Shown one piece after another: positions 2,729 through 15,862 of a stretch of DNA of 39,710 nt. A model generated the notes under the pieces. That model had not been told where the DNA came from. It was given only the letters and a program-made list of their open reading frames with translations, and did not search any database. The DNA lies in NCBI GenBank assembly GCA_012514535.1, contig JAAZAA010000141.1:1-39710 (forward strand), in the 5' to 3' direction. The stretch comes from Myxococcales bacterium (GTDB taxonomy: Bacteria; Myxococcota_A; Polyangia; Polyangiales; Polyangiaceae). Made by a program: the position numbers and the translations under genes. The stretch's first letter is position 1, and the number at the start of each line of letters is the position of its first letter.

Positions 2729-3152
2729 TCAGTCCATCTTCGGGAGCTCCCAGCCGAGCTGCTTGAGGATGGCTCGAAAGTTCGCCTCCTCCTCCCGGGC
2801 GCGGGACAGCAACACGAGGAAGCGCTTGTATTCCTTCTTGGTGGCCGCCTCCGCCGCGCGCTCGTAGGCCTCCAACACGAGGATGAGGTGCGGGTGCGCT
2901 TGCGCCACCTCCGACGGCACGTGCATGCCCCGGGCCACCTGGAGGCGCCCGTCGGCGAGCTTGTGCACCAGCCGAGCGAGCTCCACGTCGTGCAGGCGCT
3001 TGCGCAACACCTCCGACTCGCGCCGCGCCTCCGTCACGAGGAGCCCCGCGCTCGTCAGGTACGTGCCCGCCAGCGCCGGGATCGCGCAGAACAACGCCGC
3101 CCCGACGACGGCGGCGCCCAGCCTCAGCGCGTGACGGCGGGAGACCGTCGCC

Positions 3153-3175
<23 letters not shown>
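2729..3175 (-). CDS. Small membrane-anchored protein of unknown function, overlaps rnc
   Basis: A protein of 148 residues from ATG 3175 or 146 from ATG 3169. It has one hydrophobic segment (about residues 16-40, LGAAVVGAALFCAIPALAG) that could be an uncleaved anchor or signal peptide; no lipobox Cys is visible. The rest is highly charged and helical (RRESEVLRKRLHDVELARL; EAYERAAEAATKKEYKRF; SRAREEEANFRAIL), suggesting a helical bundle or coiled coil. The start overlaps the 3' end of rnc by about 20 bp in another frame (the GATGACGATG region), so translation is probably coupled to RNase III. I do not recognise the family. Confidence 0.7.
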
Positions 3176-3896
<721 letters not shown>

Positions 3897-4016
3897 CGGG
3901 GTGAGGAGACTAGCCCAGCGCTCCCGCCGCCGCACAGCGCTCCAGAGCGCCGCGAGCGCGACGCCCGCAGCGGCGCTCTCCGCTACGGCCCCGTGCCCGG
4001 CGCCCCTGCCCACCAA

Positions 4017-4042
4017 CCCGTACCTGGCGCCCGTACCTGGCG
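4017..4042. repeat. 13-bp tandem duplication in the rnc upstream gap
   Basis: CCCGTACCTGGCG occurs twice in direct succession in the 225-bp divergent gap between rnc (minus) and the zinc-ribbon gene (plus). The rest of the gap is GC-rich with several GGCGCC-type palindromic bits and no recognisable promoter. Confidence 0.6.
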
Positions 4043-4121
4043 CCCCACCGTGTCCGGCGGTCCGTACGCGGCGGCGCCGTGCCCCGGCGACCGCGAGCCC
4101 CTATCATGGGCCGCTCCTCCC

Positions 4122-4772
4122 ATGGCGCGCCTCCTCGCCTGTCCCTTTTGCCGAGAGCTCTTCGACGACCGCGAAGCGAGCCGCTGCCCCCAGTGCGACC
4201 TCCCCCTGGTGCCCATGGAGCGGCTCCCCCTCTCTGCGGAGGCCCTCGAGGAGCAAGGGGCCCCTGAGCTCCCTCCCGAATACCGTCCCCTCGGCACCTG
4301 GTTCCTCGGCCGTGGTCGGGGCGCCCTGCTGGCCCTCGCCGTCGCGGGAGCGGTGCTCTTCTTCATGCCCTGGGTCGAGCTGACCCGCGCCCACGAGGTG
4401 ACCCTCCGCGGTTACGACCTGGCCCGCGGCAACGCCCCCTGGCTCTGGGGCGGCGCCATCGGCTGGTTCTTGCTGATCCCGCTGCTCCTCTCCCGCCGCA
4501 CCATCGCGGATCTGCGCGGGGTGCGGGTGATCGCCGCGACCTTCTCCGCCATGACCCTCGGCGAGGCGGTGATGTTGCTCCTCCGCCCGCCCGCCGAGCA
4601 CGGCTACGTCAGCTACGGCCTGGAGTACACCTGGGGGCTCTACGGGAGCGCCCTCGTGAGCGCCGCCGCGATCGCCGTCGCGGTGCGCCTCGGAGGGCGC
4701 CTCGAGGATCTGCGGGATCTGCCCCCGGAGGACGTGGAGTCCAGCGGCCCCAAGAAGCGCGTGCTCCACTGA
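4122..4772 (+). CDS. Zinc-ribbon membrane protein, function unknown
   Basis: A 216-residue protein. The ATG at 4122 is followed directly by a treble-clef/zinc-ribbon signature, CPFC (residues 7-10) and CPQC (about 22-25), facing the cytoplasm. Four hydrophobic segments follow: LLALAVAGAVLFFMPWV (about 70-86), WLWGGAIGWFLLIPLLL (about 108-124), VIAATFSAMTLGEAVMLLL (about 136-154) and YGSALVSAAAIAVAVRL (about 171-187). The C-terminus is polar and charged. Zinc-ribbon plus small multi-span architecture is common among uncharacterised myxobacterial membrane proteins; no enzymatic motif is visible. It converges on the outer-membrane protein gene. Confidence 0.78.
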   Translation: MARLLACPFCRELFDDREASRCPQCDLPLVPMERLPLSAEALEEQGAPELPPEYRPLGTWFLGRGRGALLALAVAGAVLFFMPWVELTRAHEVTLRGYDLARGNAPWLWGGAIGWFLLIPLLLSRRTIADLRGVRVIAATFSAMTLGEAVMLLLRPPAEHGYVSYGLEYTWGLYGSALVSAAAIAVAVRLGGRLEDLRDLPPEDVESSGPKKRVLH

Positions 4773-6625: not shown

Positions 6626-8041
6626 TTAGACACCGCTCCCTTCGCTCGCGGACGTCTTCGGCACGCTCGGCAACCAGACGACGAAGCGGGCGCCCCGCGC
6701 GTAGCTCGTGTCCAGCGAGACGTCGCCGCCGTGATTCCGCGCGATCTCCCGGGCGATGGTCAGCCCGAGCCCCGCGCCGGACGCGGCCTCCCCTTGATCC
6801 TTCGAGCCCCGGAAGAAGGGCTCGAAGATACTCCCGCGCTCCTCCGGCGGGACCCCGCGCCCTTCGTCTTCGACCGCGAGCCCCACACGCGCCCCCTCAC
6901 GGGTCACCCACAGATCGACCGCACCGCCCGCTCGGGTACGGGTCACGGCGTTGTCCACCAGGTTGCGCAGCGCCCGGGCCAGCTCGCTGGGAGATCCGGA
7001 CAGACAACGCTCCTCCGTCCCCTCCCCGAGGTGCAGCCGCACGCTCACGCCCCGGTCCGTCGCGGCCCCTTGCACGAGGTGCAGGGTGTCACGGGCGACC
7101 TCCGCCGGGGACACGAGCTCGTCGGGGCGGGCGCCCTCGGGCTTGGCCTGGGTCCGCGCCAGCACCAACAGCTCCTCCGCCACGGCGGCCAGCGCCTCGA
7201 CGTCTCCGAGGGCCTGCTCGATGGCGGTCCGATATTCTGCGGCGGAGCGCTCGCGACGCAGCGCCAGCTGCAGCTCCCCGCGGATCGTCGCGAGGGGAGA
7301 GCGGAGCTCGTGGGCCGCGTGCGACACGAAGGTGCGCTGGGACACGACCAGCGCGCCGAGCTGGTCGATCATGTGGTCGATGTCCGCCGCGAGCCGGCGC
7401 GTCTCCGTCGCCCCGCCCGTCGGCCCCACGCGCGCCGCCAAGTCGCCCTCCGCCACGGCGCGCGCCACCGACGCGACCGCCTGGACGTCCCGGGACATCC
7501 GCTTCGCGATCCAGCTGGCGACGACGCTGGCGAGCAGGGTGGCGGCCAGGAAGACGACGCTCGCGGCCCGGTTCAAGAACCGCCACTCGGAGTCGATGGT
7601 GGCCCGGGAGATCGCGTAGAGCAGCACCCGCCCCTCGGATCCCACCGGCAACACCACGCCGCGCATGTCCCGCTGCCCCTCCGAAAAATCGACGAACACC
7701 CCCTCCGCGGTGGGGACCCGGGCCTCCGGCCACTCGTCCAAGGGTGGGGGCGCCGGGTGGAACCCGGAGAACTCGAGCGCGCGGCCGTCCGCCCCGTAGA
7801 GCGCAACGAAGCGCGGCGTCGGCTCGGCCCGCTCCGGGGTCACCTCGAAGGCCTCCTCGACGGAGCTCAGGTGCTCGGAGCGCGCGCGCTCGACGAGGGA
7901 CTGGCCTCGGATCAGCAGGATCCGGTCCAGCTCGCGCCGCTCGGATCGATAGACGCTCAGCGAGACGGCGAAGAAGGACGTGGCCAGGGTCACGGCGGTG
8001 ATCGTCGTCACCGCCAGCGTGACTCGAGTCGCGAGCTTCAT
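6626..8041 (-). CDS. Membrane sensor histidine kinase of the efflux locus
   Basis: A 471-residue kinase. The ATG at 8041 overlaps the response-regulator stop (ATGA), indicating translational coupling. Order: TM1 (about 8-30), periplasmic sensor region (about 31-155), TM2 (about 158-178), HAMP (about 178-230), HisKA with the phosphorylated His in HAAHELRSPL (H244), and HATPase_c with the N box (NLVDNAV, N364), G1 box EDEGRGVP (391-398), F box IFEPFF and G2 box GAGLGLTIA (422-430). The periplasmic domain is short and shows no obvious metal-binding cluster of His/Cys/Met. Gene order next to an RND adaptor and pump matches CusS/CzcS-type metal-responsive systems; the ligand itself is inferred. 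Confidence 0.92.
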   Translation of the reverse strand: MKLATRVTLAVTTITAVTLATSFFAVSLSVYRSERRELDRILLIRGQSLVERARSEHLSSVEEAFEVTPERAEPTPRFVALYGADGRALEFSGFHPAPPPLDEWPEARVPTAEGVFVDFSEGQRDMRGVVLPVGSEGRVLLYAISRATIDSEWRFLNRAASVVFLAATLLASVVASWIAKRMSRDVQAVASVARAVAEGDLAARVGPTGGATETRRLAADIDHMIDQLGALVVSQRTFVSHAAHELRSPLATIRGELQLALRRERSAAEYRTAIEQALGDVEALAAVAEELLVLARTQAKPEGARPDELVSPAEVARDTLHLVQGAATDRGVSVRLHLGEGTEERCLSGSPSELARALRNLVDNAVTRTRAGGAVDLWVTREGARVGLAVEDEGRGVPPEERGSIFEPFFRGSKDQGEAASGAGLGLTIAREIARNHGGDVSLDTSYARGARFVVWLPSVPKTSASEGSGV

Positions 8042-8700
8042 GGCGCCTCGAGACGGTATCCTATACCTCTCACGGTCACGATCATCGAGCCGTGGGCGCC
8101 GAGCTTCTCCCGCAGGTTCCTGACGTGGACCTCGACCACGTTGGACTTCGTGTCGAAGCTCACCTCCCACACCTTCGAGAGCAGCTCCGTCCGGGACACC
8201 ACGCGCCCCGCCTGAGCGGCGAGGTACGCGATCAGGGAGAACTCACGGGGCGTCAGCGACACGCGCGCCCCCTCGAGGAGCACCCTGCGCTCCCGCCGAT
8301 CCACGACCAGCGGGCCCACGCGGACCGTCCCCTCGCCGCCCTTCCCGCGGCGCGCCAGCGCCCGGACCCGCGCGAGGAACTCACCGAGATCGAAGGGTTT
8401 CGTCAGATAATCGTCGGCGCCCGCGTCGAGGCCCGCGACCCGCTCCGGGACGTCTCCCCGCGCCGTGAGCATCAGGATGCCCACCTGGCTCCCCAGCGCC
8501 CGCAGCCTGCGACACACGGACAAACCGTCCAGCTCCGGGAGCATCCAATCCAAGACGATCAGGTCGTAGGCGATCTCCTGCGCTTGCTCGAGGGCGGTCG
8601 TCCCGTCCGTCACCACGTCGACGACGTAACCCTCTTCGGTCAGCGCGCGCGTCAGGAAGCTCGCGAGCTTTCTGTTGTCCTCGACGATCAGGATCTTCAT
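8038..8700 (-). CDS. OmpR/PhoB-family response regulator of the efflux locus
   Basis: A 220-residue transcription factor, starting at ATG 8700 (MKILIVEDN), which fits the family start exactly. The receiver domain has the acidic pair (E7, D8), phosphoacceptor D51 (VLDWMLPELDG), the Thr of LMLTARGD and K101 (LTKPF). The C-terminal winged helix (about 128-218) contains SLTPREFSLIAYLAAQAG and NVVEVHVRNLREKLG. Its stop overlaps the kinase start. It should bind tandem direct repeats spaced by one helical turn; such a repeat lies just upstream (8744-8760), so autoregulation and control of the divergent pump genes are likely. Confidence 0.94.
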   Translation of the reverse strand: MKILIVEDNRKLASFLTRALTEEGYVVDVVTDGTTALEQAQEIAYDLIVLDWMLPELDGLSVCRRLRALGSQVGILMLTARGDVPERVAGLDAGADDYLTKPFDLGEFLARVRALARRGKGGEGTVRVGPLVVDRRERRVLLEGARVSLTPREFSLIAYLAAQAGRVVSRTELLSKVWEVSFDTKSNVVEVHVRNLREKLGAHGSMIVTVRGIGYRLEAP

Positions 8701-8732
8701 TCTCGGCGGAAGCCTCTCCCCGGAAGAGCTCA

Positions 8733-8761
8733 CATGAAGGAATCTTCATCTTTCCTTCATG
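8733..8761. promoter_or_regulatory. Phased CTTCAT element, candidate regulator binding site
   Basis: CTTCAT occurs at 8744-8749 and 8755-8760 on the plus strand, 11 bp apart start to start, the spacing favoured by OmpR/PhoB dimers. The outer arms also form a perfect 10-bp inverted repeat: CATGAAGGAA (8733-8742) and TTCCTTCATG (8752-8761). The element is AT-rich in an otherwise very GC-rich window and lies in the divergent gap between the response-regulator gene and the adaptor gene. Confidence 0.6.
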
Positions 8762-8827
8762 AAACCGCAGCGTACCCTCCGTATCTTCGATGCGCACATG
8801 CCGCCACTTTCCGGAGACATGCGCGCG

Positions 8828-10060
8828 ATGCGGCGCGGACACAGCCACCTCGGTGCCCCTCGACGCAGAGGAGCCCGAGCGGCCCACCGATCCCGGCGCG
8901 CCGCGGCGGCGCTGCCCGCCCCCTCGGAGACGGCGCGCGCCTCCCCGATCGCGCTGCTCGCCTTCACGCTCCTGAGCGCCTGTTCGAACGTGAGCGAGGC
9001 CCGCCCGGAGCACCACCTCCCCGAGCCGCCCTATCGCATCAGCGCCGGCGCCCCCGACCGCCTGCACGTGCGTCCGGACCTGGCGGCGAAGTTGGAGACG
9101 ACCCCCGCGGGGAGCTCGGACGTCCAGGCGCGGCTCACGGGTTACGGCCGCCTGGGGTTCGCGGCGGACGCGGCCTACTCGGTCCGTCCCCCGTTCCCCT
9201 CCTACGTGGAGCGCGTCCTCGTGGGCGTCGGCGACCGGGTCACGGTGGGACAACCCCTCGCGGAGCTCCGCAGCAGCGATCTCGCCCGTTTGCGCGCCGA
9301 GCTGTCCCGCAACCAGGTCCAGGTGCGGGTCGCCCGCCAGGCCGTCGAGCGACTCGAGCCGCTGGTGCGCGACGGGACCGCCGCGGAGCGCGAGCTCGCC
9401 GAAGCCCAAGCGAGCCTGGAGGTCGCCGAGGCGGAGCTCGCGAGCGTGCGCCAGGCCCTGGCCGCGGTCGGATCCAGCGGCGGCGGTGGCGATCGTTATC
9501 TCTTGCGGGCGGCGGCCGAGGGCAGCGTGATGCGCCGGGGCGTGGCGCCCGGGGAGCGGGTGGGGCCCGACGGCGAGCCCGCCTTCCTCATCGGGGATCC
9601 GGAGCGCCTCGTCGTCCGCGCGGCGTTCCCCGAGCGCGACGCGCCGTGGCTCCGGGAAGGGGCCCCCTGCTCGTTCACCGTCCAGGCGCTCGGCGACGAA
9701 CCTCTGGCGGGCACCGTGCTCCGCGTGCTGAGCGCCGTGGATCCGCGGACCCGCTCCGTGGAGGCCCTGTGTCGCCCCGACGAGCACCACGACGCCCTCC
9801 GCGCCGAGATGCTCGCTCGGGTGGACGTGAGCGTGCACGGCGAAGATCGGATCCTCGTGCCCCGCGACGCCCTGTTGATGAAGCGCGATCGCTGGGTCGT
9901 GTTCGTGCGCGCGGATGAGCGCACCGTCGAGCGTCGCTTCGTCGTCCCCGGGCTCTCCCTCGGCGGTCACGTGCAGATCGCCGAAGGGATCGCCCCGGGG
10001 GAGCACGTGATCGTCCGCGGCGCCGTCCTCCTCGACGGTGAGCTCGACGTGCTGCTCTGA
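8828..10060 (+). CDS. RND efflux periplasmic adaptor subunit (membrane-fusion protein), lipoprotein
   Basis: A protein of about 410 residues. The open frame begins at ATG 8759, but that codon is inside the putative operator, so a later ATG (8828, or 8819) is preferred; a GGAGA at 8813-8817 is the nearest ribosome-binding site. After a long basic n-region a hydrophobic segment ends in a lipobox-like LLSAC (Cys about residue 52). The adaptor body follows: lipoyl half-motif (YVERVLVGVGDRVTVGQPLAEL), alpha-helical hairpin (about 150-230, coiled-coil: RLRAELSRNQVQVRVARQAVERL), second lipoyl half (RAAAEGSVMRRGVAPGERVG), beta-barrel and membrane-proximal domains (VRADERTVERRFVVPG ... GEHVIVRGAVLLDGEL). 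It should bridge the inner-membrane pump and the outer-membrane channel. Confidence 0.88.
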   Translation: MRRGHSHLGAPRRRGARAAHRSRRAAAALPAPSETARASPIALLAFTLLSACSNVSEARPEHHLPEPPYRISAGAPDRLHVRPDLAAKLETTPAGSSDVQARLTGYGRLGFAADAAYSVRPPFPSYVERVLVGVGDRVTVGQPLAELRSSDLARLRAELSRNQVQVRVARQAVERLEPLVRDGTAAERELAEAQASLEVAEAELASVRQALAAVGSSGGGGDRYLLRAAAEGSVMRRGVAPGERVGPDGEPAFLIGDPERLVVRAAFPERDAPWLREGAPCSFTVQALGDEPLAGTVLRVLSAVDPRTRSVEALCRPDEHHDALRAEMLARVDVSVHGEDRILVPRDALLMKRDRWVVFVRADERTVERRFVVPGLSLGGHVQIAEGIAPGEHVIVRGAVLLDGELDVLL

Positions 10061-10206
10061 GCCGCCGGGAGGGGGTGCTCCGCCCCGGCGTCGTCGCCGG
10101 GAGCCGAGCCGCGAGGTCCCCTCCCCCAACTAGCGAGCTCCCGGCTCCCTCCTCCGTCCGAAGGCCCCCGCGGGCGCCCTCGGCCCCCTCACCTCGCCCT
10201 CCCTCC

Positions 10207-13200
10207 ATGTTCGCAGCCCTGGCCCGCTTCTCGACCTATCATTGGAAGCTCATCCTGCTTCTGACGGCGGTCTTCTCCGCGGTCTCCTACTACGCGTTCC
10301 GCCAGCTGCCCGTGGAGGCCTACCCGGACGTCACCGATCCGATGGTGGAGGTCGTCGCGGTCTTCCCGGGGCAGTCCGCCGAAGAAACGGAGCGGCGAGT
10401 CAGCGCCGAGCTCGAGCGGGTCCTCGCGGGGACCCCTCACCTCAAGAACATCCGCTCGGTCTCCATCTTCGGTCTCTCCCTGGTGACCCTGCGCTTCTCG
10501 GACGCGTCGACGGACCGCGAGAACCGCATCCACGTCGCCGAACGACTCCGGGAGGCGACGCTGCCCGACGGGGTGGAGGCGCTGATCGGACCCCAGGCGA
10601 CGCCGGTCGGGCAGATCTATCGCTACACGCTCAGCGGGCCCCGCACGCTCCGGGAGCTCCGCTCGATCCAGGACTGGGTCGTGGAGCGGCGGCTGCGCTC
10701 CGTGCCCGGCGTCGCCGACGTCGTCACCTTCGGCGGCTTCGAGCGCCAGTACGCCTTGCGCATCGATCCGGTGCGCCTCGCCAACCTCGACGTCACGGTC
10801 GGTGAGGTCTTCCGCGCCGTCGAGGCCACCAGCCAGAACGCCGGAGGCGGCTACGTCGGCATCGGCAACCAGGAGTTCGTCGTGCGCGGCCTCGGCTCCC
10901 TGGAGGACCCCGCCGACATCGGTCGAGCCCTGGTCACGTCCCGCGACGGCATCCCGATCCGCGTCCGAGACGTCGCCGACGTCGTGGAGAGCTCCGTGCC
11001 GCGCCGGGGCTCCGTGGGGCGCAACCTCGAGGACGAGGTCGTGCAAGGGATCGTCCTCCTGCGCCGGGGCGAGAACCCCGATCTCGTGCTCGCGGCCCTC
11101 CAGGAGCGCGTCGACGAGCTCAACGGCGGCATCCTCCCCAGCGACGTGCGCCTCGTGCCCTTCTACGACCGGCGCGACCTCATGGCGGAGACGCTCTCCA
11201 CGGTCGGTCACAACCTGCTGCACGGGGCGATCCTCGTCGTCAGCATCGCGCTGTTGTTCCTGCGCTCGGCCTCCGCGGCGCTGATCATCGCCTGCGTCAT
11301 CCCCCTGGCGTTGCTCACCTCCTTCCTGGGGCTGCGCACCTTCGGGATGTCCGCCAACCTGATCTCCCTCGGCGCGATCGACTTCGGCATCCTGGTGGAG
11401 AACGCCGCGGTCGTGCTGGAGGTGACCCTCCACGGCATGGCGGTGATGCAAGCGACCGGCAAGGGGCCGCTGCCGCTCGCCCTGCGACGCCAGGCCATCG
11501 CGGACGCGTCGGCGAGCGTGGCGCGCCCCGTCGGCTTCGCCAAGCTCATCGTCATCGTCGGGCTGCTGCCGTTGTTCTTCTTGGAGCAGGTCGAGGGCCG
11601 CATCTTCGCGCCGATGGCGTACACCTACGTCTTCGCCCTGATCGGCGCGCGCGTCGCGGCCACGACGGTGGTCCCCGCCCTCGCCGCGGTCTTGCTGCGG
11701 CGCGAGGTGCCCTCGGAGGATCCCCGCTGGTTCCGGCGGCTCCTGGCCGCCTACGCCCGGGCCCTGTCCCGCGCGCGGCGCTTCCGCTGGTACGTCCTCG
11801 GCGCGGCCGTCGCCGGGGGCGGGCTCCTGGCTTCCTACGCTCGCCCCATCGGCACGGAGTTCCTGCCCCAGCTCAACGAGGGCGGCCTCTACATCACCGC
11901 CGTCTTCCCCTCGACGATCGCCCTCGACGAGGCGAGCCAGTACGTCCCCGACATCCGCCGCAAGATCCTCGCCCTCCCGGAGGCGCAGGAGGTCCTGTCC
12001 CAGCTGGGCCGCCCCGAGGACGCCACACAGATCGAAGGCCCCAACAACCTCGAGCTGTTCGTCAAGCTCGCCCCCCTGGACAGCTGGCGCCCCGGGTACC
12101 GGATCGCGGATCTGGAGCGGGAGCTCCGCGGATCCCTCCAGGAAATCCCAGGGGTCAGCTTCAACTTCTCGCAGCCGATCACGGACCGGGTCTTCGAGAC
12201 CATCTCCGGGATCATCGGGCAGGTGGTCGTCAAGGTCCGCGGAGACGACCTCGAGCAGCTCACCGACATCGCCGAACAGGTCAAGGACCGCCTGGGATCG
12301 GTGGAGGGGGTCACGGATCTCCTCCTCTACCAGGCGGGCAGCGTGCCCCAGATGGGCGTGCGGCTCGATCGAGAACGCCTGGCCGAGCGGGGGCTGAGCG
12401 TGGCGGAGGTCCAGGAGGTCATCGAGGTGGCGCTGGGAGGCAAGGTGGCGACGGAAGTGTGGGAAGGAGAGCGACGCTACGGAGTCGCGCTGCGTCTGCC
12501 GGACGCGGTGCGCCAGGATCCAGAGGCGTTGGGGAGGCTGGTCGTCGGAGACGCGGAGAACCGCGTCACCCTGGCGGAGGTCGCCGAGATCACCCCGACC
12601 CTCGGCCGCTCGGCGATCTGGCGCGAGAACCTCTCCCGCTTCGTGGCGGTGAAGTTCAACGTGCGCGACAGGGATCTGGGCTCCACCGTGGCCGCCGCCC
12701 GGGAGGCCGTCGCGGACATCGAGCTCCCGGAGGGGACGACCCTCGCCTTCGGCGGCGAGTTCGAGAACCAGCAGCGCGCCATGCAGCGCCTGGTCCTGGT
12801 GGTCCCGCTGACGCTGCTCGCCATGCTGGGCATCCTCTACTGGAACTTCGGCAGGTGGCTGCCGGCCCTCACGATCATGGCGTTCTTGCCCCTGGCGGTG
12901 GCCTGCGGCGTCGCCGGGCTGCGGGCCATGGGGGAGAACTTCTCCGTGTCCGCCGCGGTCGGCTGCATCACCCTGCTGGGCCAGGTGGTCCTCGCGGGAG
13001 TGCTGGTGTGTACGCGCATCGACCACGCGGCGAAGAGCGGCGCCGCGGATCCAGGGCTCGCCGGCGCCCTGCTCGCCCTCCGCTCCGTGCTGCTGACGGT
13101 CTGCCTGGCCGCGCTGGGGCTCGTGCCCGCGGCCCTGTCCCAGGGGATGGGCAGCGAATCGCAGCGCCCCTTCGCCATCGCGATCATCGCGGGGCTCTTG

Positions 13201-14676
13201 GCCACCGTGCCCGCCGTGCTCCTGCTCCTCCCGCTCTTCTATCGACCGCCCGCCGACCCCGGCGCGGGAGGTTCCGCGGAGGAGGCGCTCTCCCACGCGC
13301 CCGGCGACGCTCCATCGAAGACTCCCGCCGTGGGCCCCGCCGTCGCCGCCGCCCTGGCGCTCGCGCTCGTGCTCTCGCTCCCGGCTCCGGCGGGGGCCAC
13401 CGAGCAGTCGTCCCCCGCCCCTCCGGCGACTCCTGCCGCGAACCAGGGGGACCCTGGTGACCGCGGCGGCGCGGCCCCCCCGATGACCCTCGACCAGCTC
13501 TTCACCCGCTGGCTGCAGGGGAGCCGTGAGGTGGCCGCCTGGCGCGCGGAGCTCGGCGCGGCGCGCTTCGACGTCGTCACGGCCCGGACCCTCCCGAACC
13601 CCGAGCTCGAGGTCTCCGGCAGCCTGGTCCTCAGCGGCGCTCCGCCCGACGGGATGCGGAACTACGGCGCGTCCCTGAGCGTCCCTCTCCCGATCTTCGG
13701 CCAGGTGGGGGCACGCTCCGAAGCCGCCCAGCGCGCCCTCGACGTCGCTGAGACGCGCGTCGCCGTGCTCCTCTGGGAGCGCGCCGCGGAGATCCGCGAG
13801 GCCGCCATCGCCCGAGCATATGCGCACGCGCGCGTCGAGAACGCCGAGCGCACCCTCGAGGAGCTCGCCCGGGTGCAGCGGATCGTGGAGTCCCGCGGAG
13901 CCGGCGGCGTCGCACCCCGCTACGACGCCATGCGCGTGGCCCTCCTCCGGGAGACCCTGGAGGCGGACGCCGCCGCGGCGCGGGTCGAGCGAGAGACCGC
14001 GGAGGCCTCGCTGCTGGGGCTCGTGGGCGATCCTCTGCTGACCCAGGCCCCCGTCCACGTCGACGGGCTCTCCCAGGGGTCACGCTCGACGAGCGCTTCG
14101 ACGAGCTCGAAGGCCCTCGAGGATGAGCGAGGGCTCCTCCGGGTGGCCCTGGCGCGGCGCCCCGACCTCGAGCTGGCGCGCCGCAGCGCACGTGCGGCCC
14201 TGGCCCTCGCTCAGCAGCACCGCAAGGACGCCACCCCCACGCCGAGCCTCGTGATCGGCACCTGGCTCACCCACGCCGAGAGCAGCGTCAGCGTCCTCGG
14301 CGGCGTCTCCGTGCCGCTCCCCCTCTTCGATCGCAACCAGGGGGCCATCGGGCGCGCCGAAGGGGAGGCCCGCGCCCACCGCACCCTGCTCGAGGCCCTC
14401 GAGGCCCGCACCCGCGCCGAGGTCCAGGGGGCCGTCCGCGCTCTGCGCCTCGCGCGTCAGGCGGAGGCACGCTTCGAGGAGAGCGGTGTGCTGGTCACCA
14501 GCGACCTCCTCGAGCGCGCCTGGCGTGCCTACGAGGCGGGGACCTTCTCCATCGCCGAGGCCCTCGACGCCTACGACGCCGTCTGGAAGGCCCGGGCGGA
14601 GGCGCTGGAGCTTCGGAAGGTCGTCGCCGACGCGGAGACACGGCTCGCGCGCGCCATCGCCCTCGACCTCCGCTGA
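10207..14676 (+). CDS. Heavy-metal-type RND pump fused in frame to a TolC-family outer-membrane factor
   Basis: A single 1489-residue reading frame. Residues 1-1012 are a complete CusA/CzcA-type RND transporter: TM1 near the start, docking/porter loops, the HME-like segment GTEFLPQLNEGGLYI (549-563), and TM4 motif DFGILVENAAVVLE with acidic D392, E398, E405, matching the D402/D408/E415 proton-relay positions of CzcA with Glu replacing the second Asp. After TM12 comes a polar linker (1013-1040), then a hydrophobic stretch (about 1045-1059) ending PAPAGA-TEQ, a good signal-peptidase I site near 1064. Residues 1093-1489 are a full outer-membrane efflux protein (PNPELEVSG, LSVPLPIFG, PLPLFDRNQGAIG, long helical hairpins). 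No stop, frameshift or restart codon with a ribosome site is evident between them. It lies 146 bp after the adaptor gene. Metal specificity unknown. Confidence 0.9.
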   Translation: MFAALARFSTYHWKLILLLTAVFSAVSYYAFRQLPVEAYPDVTDPMVEVVAVFPGQSAEETERRVSAELERVLAGTPHLKNIRSVSIFGLSLVTLRFSDASTDRENRIHVAERLREATLPDGVEALIGPQATPVGQIYRYTLSGPRTLRELRSIQDWVVERRLRSVPGVADVVTFGGFERQYALRIDPVRLANLDVTVGEVFRAVEATSQNAGGGYVGIGNQEFVVRGLGSLEDPADIGRALVTSRDGIPIRVRDVADVVESSVPRRGSVGRNLEDEVVQGIVLLRRGENPDLVLAALQERVDELNGGILPSDVRLVPFYDRRDLMAETLSTVGHNLLHGAILVVSIALLFLRSASAALIIACVIPLALLTSFLGLRTFGMSANLISLGAIDFGILVENAAVVLEVTLHGMAVMQATGKGPLPLALRRQAIADASASVARPVGFAKLIVIVGLLPLFFLEQVEGRIFAPMAYTYVFALIGARVAATTVVPALAAVLLRREVPSEDPRWFRRLLAAYARALSRARRFRWYVLGAAVAGGGLLASYARPIGTEFLPQLNEGGLYITAVFPSTIALDEASQYVPDIRRKILALPEAQEVLSQLGRPEDATQIEGPNNLELFVKLAPLDSWRPGYRIADLERELRGSLQEIPGVSFNFSQPITDRVFETISGIIGQVVVKVRGDDLEQLTDIAEQVKDRLGSVEGVTDLLLYQAGSVPQMGVRLDRERLAERGLSVAEVQEVIEVALGGKVATEVWEGERRYGVALRLPDAVRQDPEALGRLVVGDAENRVTLAEVAEITPTLGRSAIWRENLSRFVAVKFNVRDRDLGSTVAAAREAVADIELPEGTTLAFGGEFENQQRAMQRLVLVVPLTLLAMLGILYWNFGRWLPALTIMAFLPLAVACGVAGLRAMGENFSVSAAVGCITLLGQVVLAGVLVCTRIDHAAKSGAADPGLAGALLALRSVLLTVCLAALGLVPAALSQGMGSESQRPFAIAIIAGLLATVPAVLLLLPLFYRPPADPGAGGSAEEALSHAPGDAPSKTPAVGPAVAAALALALVLSLPAPAGATEQSSPAPPATPAANQGDPGDRGGAAPPMTLDQLFTRWLQGSREVAAWRAELGAARFDVVTARTLPNPELEVSGSLVLSGAPPDGMRNYGASLSVPLPIFGQVGARSEAAQRALDVAETRVAVLLWERAAEIREAAIARAYAHARVENAERTLEELARVQRIVESRGAGGVAPRYDAMRVALLRETLEADAAAARVERETAEASLLGLVGDPLLTQAPVHVDGLSQGSRSTSASTSSKALEDERGLLRVALARRPDLELARRSARAALALAQQHRKDATPTPSLVIGTWLTHAESSVSVLGGVSVPLPLFDRNQGAIGRAEGEARAHRTLLEALEARTRAEVQGAVRALRLARQAEARFEESGVLVTSDLLERAWRAYEAGTFSIAEALDAYDAVWKARAEALELRKVVADAETRLARAIALDLR

Positions 14677-14707
14677 AGACGACGAAGGACCGCGCTCGTT
14701 CGCGGCG

Positions 14708-14766
14708 CGGCGACGCACGGCGACGCACGGCGGCGACGCACGGCGGCGACGCACGGCGGCGACGCG
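14708..14766. repeat. 10-bp and 13-bp GC tandem repeats after the pump gene
   Basis: Two CGGCGACGCA units (14708-14727) are followed by two perfect CGGCGGCGACGCA units and a third that ends in G (14728-14766). They fill most of the 106-bp convergent gap between the pump gene and trpS. Confidence 0.8.
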
Positions 14767-14782: not shown

Positions 14783-15793
14783 TCAGAGCAGGCCCGCGGC
14801 GCGTTTGACGGCCTCGAGCTGAGGAACCGCCACCTCGCGGGCCCGCGCGGCGCCCGCCCGCAAGATCGCCTCGACGGCGCCGAGATCCTTCTCGAGCTCC
14901 GCCCGGCGGGCGCGCGCTTCGTCGAAGGTGGCGTGGAACAGCTCGAGGAGGCGCTTCTTGTAGACGCCGTAGCCCTGCCCGCCGCGCCGCCAGCTGGCGT
15001 CCAGCTCCGCGAACTCTTCCGGGGGAGCCATCACCTGAAGCAGCGCGTGCAGGGCGTTCCCCTCCACGGGCTTCGGCTCCTCCACCGCGGTGGAGTCCGT
15101 CTTGATCCCCATGATCGTCTTCTTGATGACCGAGTCGGGCGCGAAGAGATCGATGGTGTTCTTGTAGCTCTTGCTCATCTTCTGCCCATCGGTCCCCAGG
15201 ATCACCGCGGTGTCCTCCTGGATGCGCGCCTCCGGGACCTTCAGCACCCCTGGCTTGCCGTTCTCGGCCCCGTTGGGATCCGCAGGATCGTAGCCGGGGC
15301 AGTAGGTGGCGTTGAACTTGATGGCCCAGTCCCGCGCGAACTCCAGGTGCTGCTTCTGGTCCTTCCCCACAGGGACGACGTCCGCGGCGTAGAGCAAGAT
15401 GTCCGCCGCCATCAGCACCGGGTAGGCGAACAAGCCGAAGTCCGGCCGTACGCCGCGGCTGACCTTGTCCTTGTAGGAGTGGGCCCGCTCCAGGTGGCTC
15501 AAGGGCACGAGGCTGCCCAGGATCCAGAAGAGCTCGCTGTGCTCGGGGACGTCCGACTGGCGAAACAGCGCGGCGCGGTCGGGATCGAGGCCGAAGGCGA
15601 GGTAGGTCAGCGCGATGTCCCAGGTGAAGTCCCGGCGCAGGGCCGCGTCCTGGATGGTCGTCATCGAGTGCAGGTTCGCGATGAAGAAGAACGACTCTCC
15701 CTCCGCCTGCATCTCGACGAACTGACGGATCGCACCATAGTAGTTCCCCAGGTGCGGTCGCCCCGACGGCTGAACTCCCGACAGAATGCGCAT
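14783..15793 (-). CDS. trpS: Tryptophanyl-tRNA synthetase
   Basis: A 336-residue class Ic aminoacyl-tRNA synthetase that charges tRNA-Trp. ATG 15793 gives the canonical start MRILSGVQPSG. The HIGH-equivalent is PHLGN (13-17), and KMSKS is intact at 205-209. Other family blocks: FFFIANLHSMT, QSDVPEHSELFWIL, AYPVLMAADILLY and VPVGKDQKQHLE. Length is typical of bacterial TrpRS. It lies 69 bp downstream of the Ser/Thr kinase gene on the same strand and may share its transcript. Confidence 0.97.
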   Translation of the reverse strand: MRILSGVQPSGRPHLGNYYGAIRQFVEMQAEGESFFFIANLHSMTTIQDAALRRDFTWDIALTYLAFGLDPDRAALFRQSDVPEHSELFWILGSLVPLSHLERAHSYKDKVSRGVRPDFGLFAYPVLMAADILLYAADVVPVGKDQKQHLEFARDWAIKFNATYCPGYDPADPNGAENGKPGVLKVPEARIQEDTAVILGTDGQKMSKSYKNTIDLFAPDSVIKKTIMGIKTDSTAVEEPKPVEGNALHALLQVMAPPEEFAELDASWRRGGQGYGVYKKRLLELFHATFDEARARRAELEKDLGAVEAILRAGAARAREVAVPQLEAVKRAAGLL

Positions 15794-15862
15794 GACGCGG
15801 CCTGGGTTACGCCAGCGCCGTAGCCAGCGCAACTCGCCGGCGTCCGCTTCTCGGCGCGTGGA

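Follow-up and report, generated by a model that had tools for sequence, protein, structure and literature searches.

A putative self-exporting pump-channel polyprotein in Myxococcota and the recurrent fusion of RND permeases with outer-membrane factors

In the window, the whole 39,710-nucleotide stretch of Myxococcales DNA analysed here, a single gene probably encodes a metal-efflux tripartite-pump polyprotein in which an RND permease runs on into an outer-membrane factor (OMF), and which would export this second half itself and be cut by signal peptidase I (SPase I). A polyprotein-like mode of production had been proposed in a preliminary description of the sequence and is supported by comparison among fused and unfused relatives; cleavage, in vivo topology, stoichiometry and metal substrate are what we infer. 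More generally, RND permeases and their channels may well have become signal peptidase-processed polyproteins repeatedly (at least four fusions, in Myxococcota and Bacteroidota), an arrangement that would deliver the outer-membrane partner co-translationally at 1:1.

The frame at 10207-14676 of the forward strand is free of stops from its ATG (10207) to its TGA (14674-14676) and encodes 1489 residues; its continuity from pump to channel and its coordinates had been correctly described. The ATG agrees with the starts of relatives (MFA... in L009, L160 and L164), with which a longer start at GTG 10075 is at odds. ACR_tran (PF00873) matches residues 10-1013 with 695.6 bits, and two stretches match OEP (PF02321), both over cut-off. 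The NCBIfam model TIGR00914 (CusA/CzcA) spans residues 1-1013 with 814.8 bits (cut-off 701.45), which places the permease among the HME-RND proteins; ZneA and CusA are its nearest solved chains and align nearly end to end. In the OMF half, homology begins at about residue 1094. Its AlphaFold model (mean pLDDT 86.3) matches TolC, SilC and CusC with TM-scores of about 0.65-0.70, as expected of a TolC-family member. The lipobox Cys that marks the mature N-terminus of the CusC/OprM lipoprotein type is absent from the window's OMF (AGA/TEQ, without Cys), and the predicted channel is thus of the TolC-like, unlipidated type.

Features of the fused gene and its surroundings are collected in Table 1. 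The adaptor gene that opens the operon scores 130.7 bits with TIGR01730 (cut-off 94.9). The divergent kinase-regulator pair comes nearest to heavy-metal models (CztSR/SilSR/CopSR), in both cases below the family cut-off. A short GC-rich tandem-like repeat (ggcgacgcacggc..., 14700-14765) follows the OMF stop and precedes the convergent trpS. Antisense to the fusion gene there is a 1289-aa open frame (10189-14058, reverse strand), probably an artefact of GC-rich DNA. No second RND-OMF fusion was found in this genome, where the other OEP matches sit in frames of 222-862 aa, too short to hold an RND permease too.

Table 1. Coordinates and basis of the features discussed in the text (window positions unless stated otherwise)
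Feature	Position	Strand	Basis or remark
Sensor histidine kinase, nearest CztS/SilS/CopS	6626..8170	-	179.4 bits, under family cut-off
Response regulator, divergent, nearest CztR/SilR/CopR	8038..8733	-	223.5 bits, under family cut-off
Periplasmic adaptor (MFP, CzcB/CusB type), first gene of the operon	8759..10060	+	PF16576, PF13437
RND permease half, residues 1-1012, HME-RND (CusA/CzcA)	10207..13242	+	PF00873, TIGR00914 over cut-off
Polar proline-rich linker past TM12, residues 1013-1041	13243..13329	+	Sequence reading
Internal signal peptide VGPAVAAALALALVLSLPAPAGA, residues 1042-1064, predicted SPase I cut after A1064	13330..13398	+	Hydropathy, (-3,-1) rule
In-frame GTG (residue 1042)	13330..13332	+	Sole candidate internal start from TM12 to h-core
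Flexible spacer, residues 1065-1093, N-terminus of predicted mature channel	13399..13485	+	Low pLDDT
OMF half, residues 1094-1489, and stop	13486..14676	+	PF02321 (two), TolC/CusC-fold AlphaFold model
trpS, convergent	14783-15832	-	
RND stop of L144 / L145	5541 / 5694 of reverse complement		

The search for relatives used the C-terminal half as query. The closest, L009 from another Myxococcales metagenome-assembled genome, is fused at the same in-frame junction and is identical to the window protein at 68% of RND positions and at 56% of OMF positions over the part available, its contig ending within the OMF. The preliminary description had called for a homology search for this junction; besides the equivalent fusion in L009, it returned further fusions in L159, L160 and L164, the last two in one-contig genomes. 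Fusions thus occur in at least 4 of the 108 genomes searched of the window's GTDB family (window, L159, L160, L164), a lower bound since it draws on matches with E <= 1e-30, of which only a part was read. Most of the Myxococcota relatives read have separate RND and OMF genes, the RND stop usually overlapping the OMF start (ATGA or GTGA); these, like the Methylococcaceae, keep the order MFP-RND-OMF, with an overlap of usually 4 nt. In L131, for instance, an unfused member of the same family with an RND 60% identical, the permease ends ...LLLLPLFYRPFTGVQSRPSP* and the OMF starts MKRLPLSALVALVLALAPSGPSWA/QPA at the overlap. Two further unfused relatives, L144 and L145 (RND 60-61% identical), have a GTGA overlap in place of ATGA. 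Among matches on Bacteroidota plasmids, those of Spirosoma (L089), Parabacteroides (L090) and Emticicia (L091), plus that of Persicobacter (L092), are unfused.

The case for a processed product lies at the junction, where an internal signal peptide had been proposed from the sequence of the window. Its h-core (AVAAALALALVL, residues 1045-1056) has a mean Kyte-Doolittle hydropathy of 2.87 and is followed by the cleavage motif PAPAGA/TEQ, in which A-G-A satisfies the (-3,-1) rule and predicts a cut after residue 1064. The n-region is weak, with one Lys and several acids upstream, and the linker is long. Charged n-regions are clear in L009 (GRTRR, h-core, then ARA/S), in L160 (KGRRW; TKGRRWPAALVAGAAALLLGVPSAQA then Q, with a predicted cut before Q) and in most Bacteroidota fusions. 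Signal peptides were judged throughout by the (-3,-1) rule together with hydropathy. By these measures a signal-peptide-like segment marks the junction in each of the 19 fusions examined (window, L009, L159, L160, L164 and 14 proteins from Bacteroidota plasmids) and is found in none of 32 unfused RND tails (L014, flagged, proved to be a tail cut before TM12), a result that bears out the proposal. The layout is shared by the 19: TM12, a short and usually basic tail (about 9-34 residues), a 12-residue core with a mean hydropathy of 2.48-3.12, and a small-residue cleavage motif. Shuffled junction sequences equal the h-core score in 4% of cases. All 14 Bacteroidota fusions carry [AS]Q 3-8 residues past the h-core; as the chance of this is 32% per shuffled junction, the motif is supportive as a set only. 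It agrees with what would be expected under the Q-rule for SPase I substrates of Bacteroidetes (PMC5837995). The OMFs of unfused relatives start with ordinary signal peptides, mostly from overlapping starts.

The channel could instead be translated separately from GTG 13330 (MGPAVAAALALALVLSLPAPAGA), the open frame then recording merely the loss of the RND stop. We hold such internal initiation to be unlikely. An in-frame GTG does stand just ahead of the window's h-core, overlapping starts initiate the OMF in unfused relatives, and the in-frame ATG of L159 yields a good signal peptide. However, GTG 13330 lies 3' of the sole nearby Lys, no Shine-Dalgarno-like sequence was seen upstream of it and, with no stop at the junction, coupled re-initiation is lost. 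The only in-frame start ahead of the h-core in L009 is also a GTG; as it falls 3' to the charged n-region, this region is present only in the fused product, and use of the GTG would drop RTRR. Six of the 19 fusions (L094, L100, L106, L107, L160 and L164) have no ATG, GTG or TTG from TM12 to the h-core: their channel must come from read-through of the pump, and their sequences exclude ordinary internal initiation. Another six (L159, L105, L109, L093, L097 and L099) have an in-frame ATG, TTG or GTG upstream of the last basic residue, which makes internal initiation possible there. L159, an RND-OMF fusion of the same family (G230:C171:1-5520, 2772-4214), has its in-frame ATG 22 residues past TM12 and could possibly yield both fused and internally initiated products.

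Read-through without cleavage, in which the junction helix would persist as TM13 and the OMF would work tethered to the RND permease, is improbable. In hydrophobicity the h-core would suit a membrane helix, and a 37-residue stretch separates it from the OMF in the window; but the path from the h-core to the first OMF helix measures only about 12-15 residues (at most ~50 A extended) in L009 and L093. The N-terminal helix H1 of an OMF belongs to the equatorial domain, half-way along an alpha-barrel that reaches 100 A down from the outer membrane (PMC8277102). Since 12-15 residues cannot span from there to the inner membrane, SPase I cleavage (or separate initiation) would be needed. A (-3,-1)-type motif or [AS]Q is, moreover, kept at every junction, which argues against a tether.

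A stop-free junction is weak evidence when taken alone, because the window DNA is GC-rich, with many long spurious ORFs, and the probability of meeting no stop over 81 codons is 0.46 at its composition. OMF-containing open frames of 680-1540 aa in five other genomes (G024, G207, G235, G237 and G158) turned out on reading to be separate genes; open-frame length was therefore given no weight as evidence of fusion. What takes the fusion beyond chance is its occurrence in L009 at 68% RND identity, the single-contig fusions and the contrast between 19/19 and 0/32 junctions. An assembly or sequencing error, by which an indel joined two separate overlapping genes, is very improbable: the genome is in 442 contigs, stops are scarce in GC-rich DNA and in most close relatives two genes lie in different frames, overlapping by 4 nt, but L009 is fused in the same place, L160 and L164 are fused in single-contig genomes, and window positions 13200-13457 lack stops in all three frames and contain no ATG, so that an ATGA-type boundary could not be recovered through any single indel. 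Separate ORFs in homologues had been named beforehand as a sign of such an error; many relatives are indeed split, but each of these has a stop and a start of its own, missing from the window, and the fusion is shared by independent genomes.

Taken as a self-exporting polyprotein, the product would be made as follows. RND permeases have 12 TMs, with both termini in the cytoplasm. The permease would be synthesised first, leaving the chain cytoplasmic after TM12; going by this topology, the linker (residues 1013-1041) is presumably on the cytoplasmic side. The junction signal peptide would then re-engage the Sec translocon and bring the OMF half to the periplasm, SPase I would cut after AGA (residue 1064), and the released channel would trimerise in the outer membrane, the RND permease retaining a short cytoplasmic tail, with the used signal left as one more membrane helix. 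Because the RND permease and the OMF each form trimers (PMC8277102), the polyprotein would give the right ratio: one RND per OMF from the fusion, trimer matched to trimer, with the adaptor supplied by its separate upstream gene.

Judging by the RND trees, which reject grouping the fused proteins together, fusion had several independent origins, spread over at least two bacterial phyla. The fused label requires 2 changes on the tree that includes the Bacteroidota set and 4 after the addition of more Myxococcota. In AU tests, a single clade of window, L009 and Bacteroidota fusions is rejected (p-AU 0.0097), as is one of window, L009, L160 and L164 (p-AU 4e-5). The window's fused RND therefore does not descend in common with the Bacteroidota fusion family, and the trees force separate origins for the Bacteroidota fusions, window plus L009, L160 plus L164, and L159. 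One ancestral fusion followed by repeated fission is possible, but it would require several regenerations of overlapping start/stop pairs. The ancestral state is likely to have been an MFP-RND-OMF operon with a 4-nt overlap. A frame change at an ATGA-like overlap would turn the two genes into one and leave the OMF signal peptide in place; each fusion would go back to an RND gene and an OMF gene side by side, usually overlapping, and would have kept that signal peptide. The window's OMF half groups with the OMFs of L142/L161/L162 (46-50% identity), the RNDs of which are only ~40% identical, and the OMFs beside the window's RND sisters belong to another clade. The fusion thus appears to have joined an OMF of another lineage, by a partner swap.

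Should cleavage hold true, one chain would serve two membranes by means of an internal signal peptide, pump and channel would be made in equal numbers at a fixed stoichiometry, and the fusions would illustrate a route from overlapping genes to bacterial polyproteins. They also offer a natural system in which to ask if co-translational export of an outer-membrane protein is possible when it follows a 12-TM protein. For annotation they are a warning, as proteins named only 'RND transporter' in many genomes include the missing outer-membrane channel.

Fusions of outer-membrane pore proteins with other domains are stated to be rare (PMC4827864); a word search of that article returned no mention of RND. 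In a partial literature search, we found no description of a signal peptide at an RND-OMF junction or of repeated origins. Already known is the RND-OMF fusion as a Bacteroidota annotation; the retained signal peptide, the recurrent origins and the Myxococcota members are new. The preliminary description had mentioned such fusions in Bacteroidetes, rightly: they are annotated there as 'CusA/CzcA family heavy metal efflux RND transporter'. These proteins (~1440-1480 aa) resemble the window's in having ACR_tran followed by two OEP repeats (Pfam-tested in four) and a signal-like junction, but their RND identity to it is only about 30-37%, and their adaptor gene lies downstream instead of upstream. 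The MFP-RND-OMF operons of Methylococcaceae and Myxococcota share the window's gene order and RND clade, but have a stop codon and a separate start. With CusCBA, ZneCBA and CzcCBA the window shares its closest structures, its RND being nearest to ZneA and CusA and its OMF having the TolC/CusC/SilC fold; unlike in the window, RND and OMF are separate genes in these systems. The nearest parallel in mechanism is FbcH of Bradyrhizobium japonicum, a cytochrome b/c1 polyprotein with internal signal cleavage, in which a polytopic inner-membrane protein is likewise followed by an exported partner with an internally cut signal peptide. Cytochrome c1 stays in the inner membrane, whereas the second product of the window's gene would reach the outer membrane.
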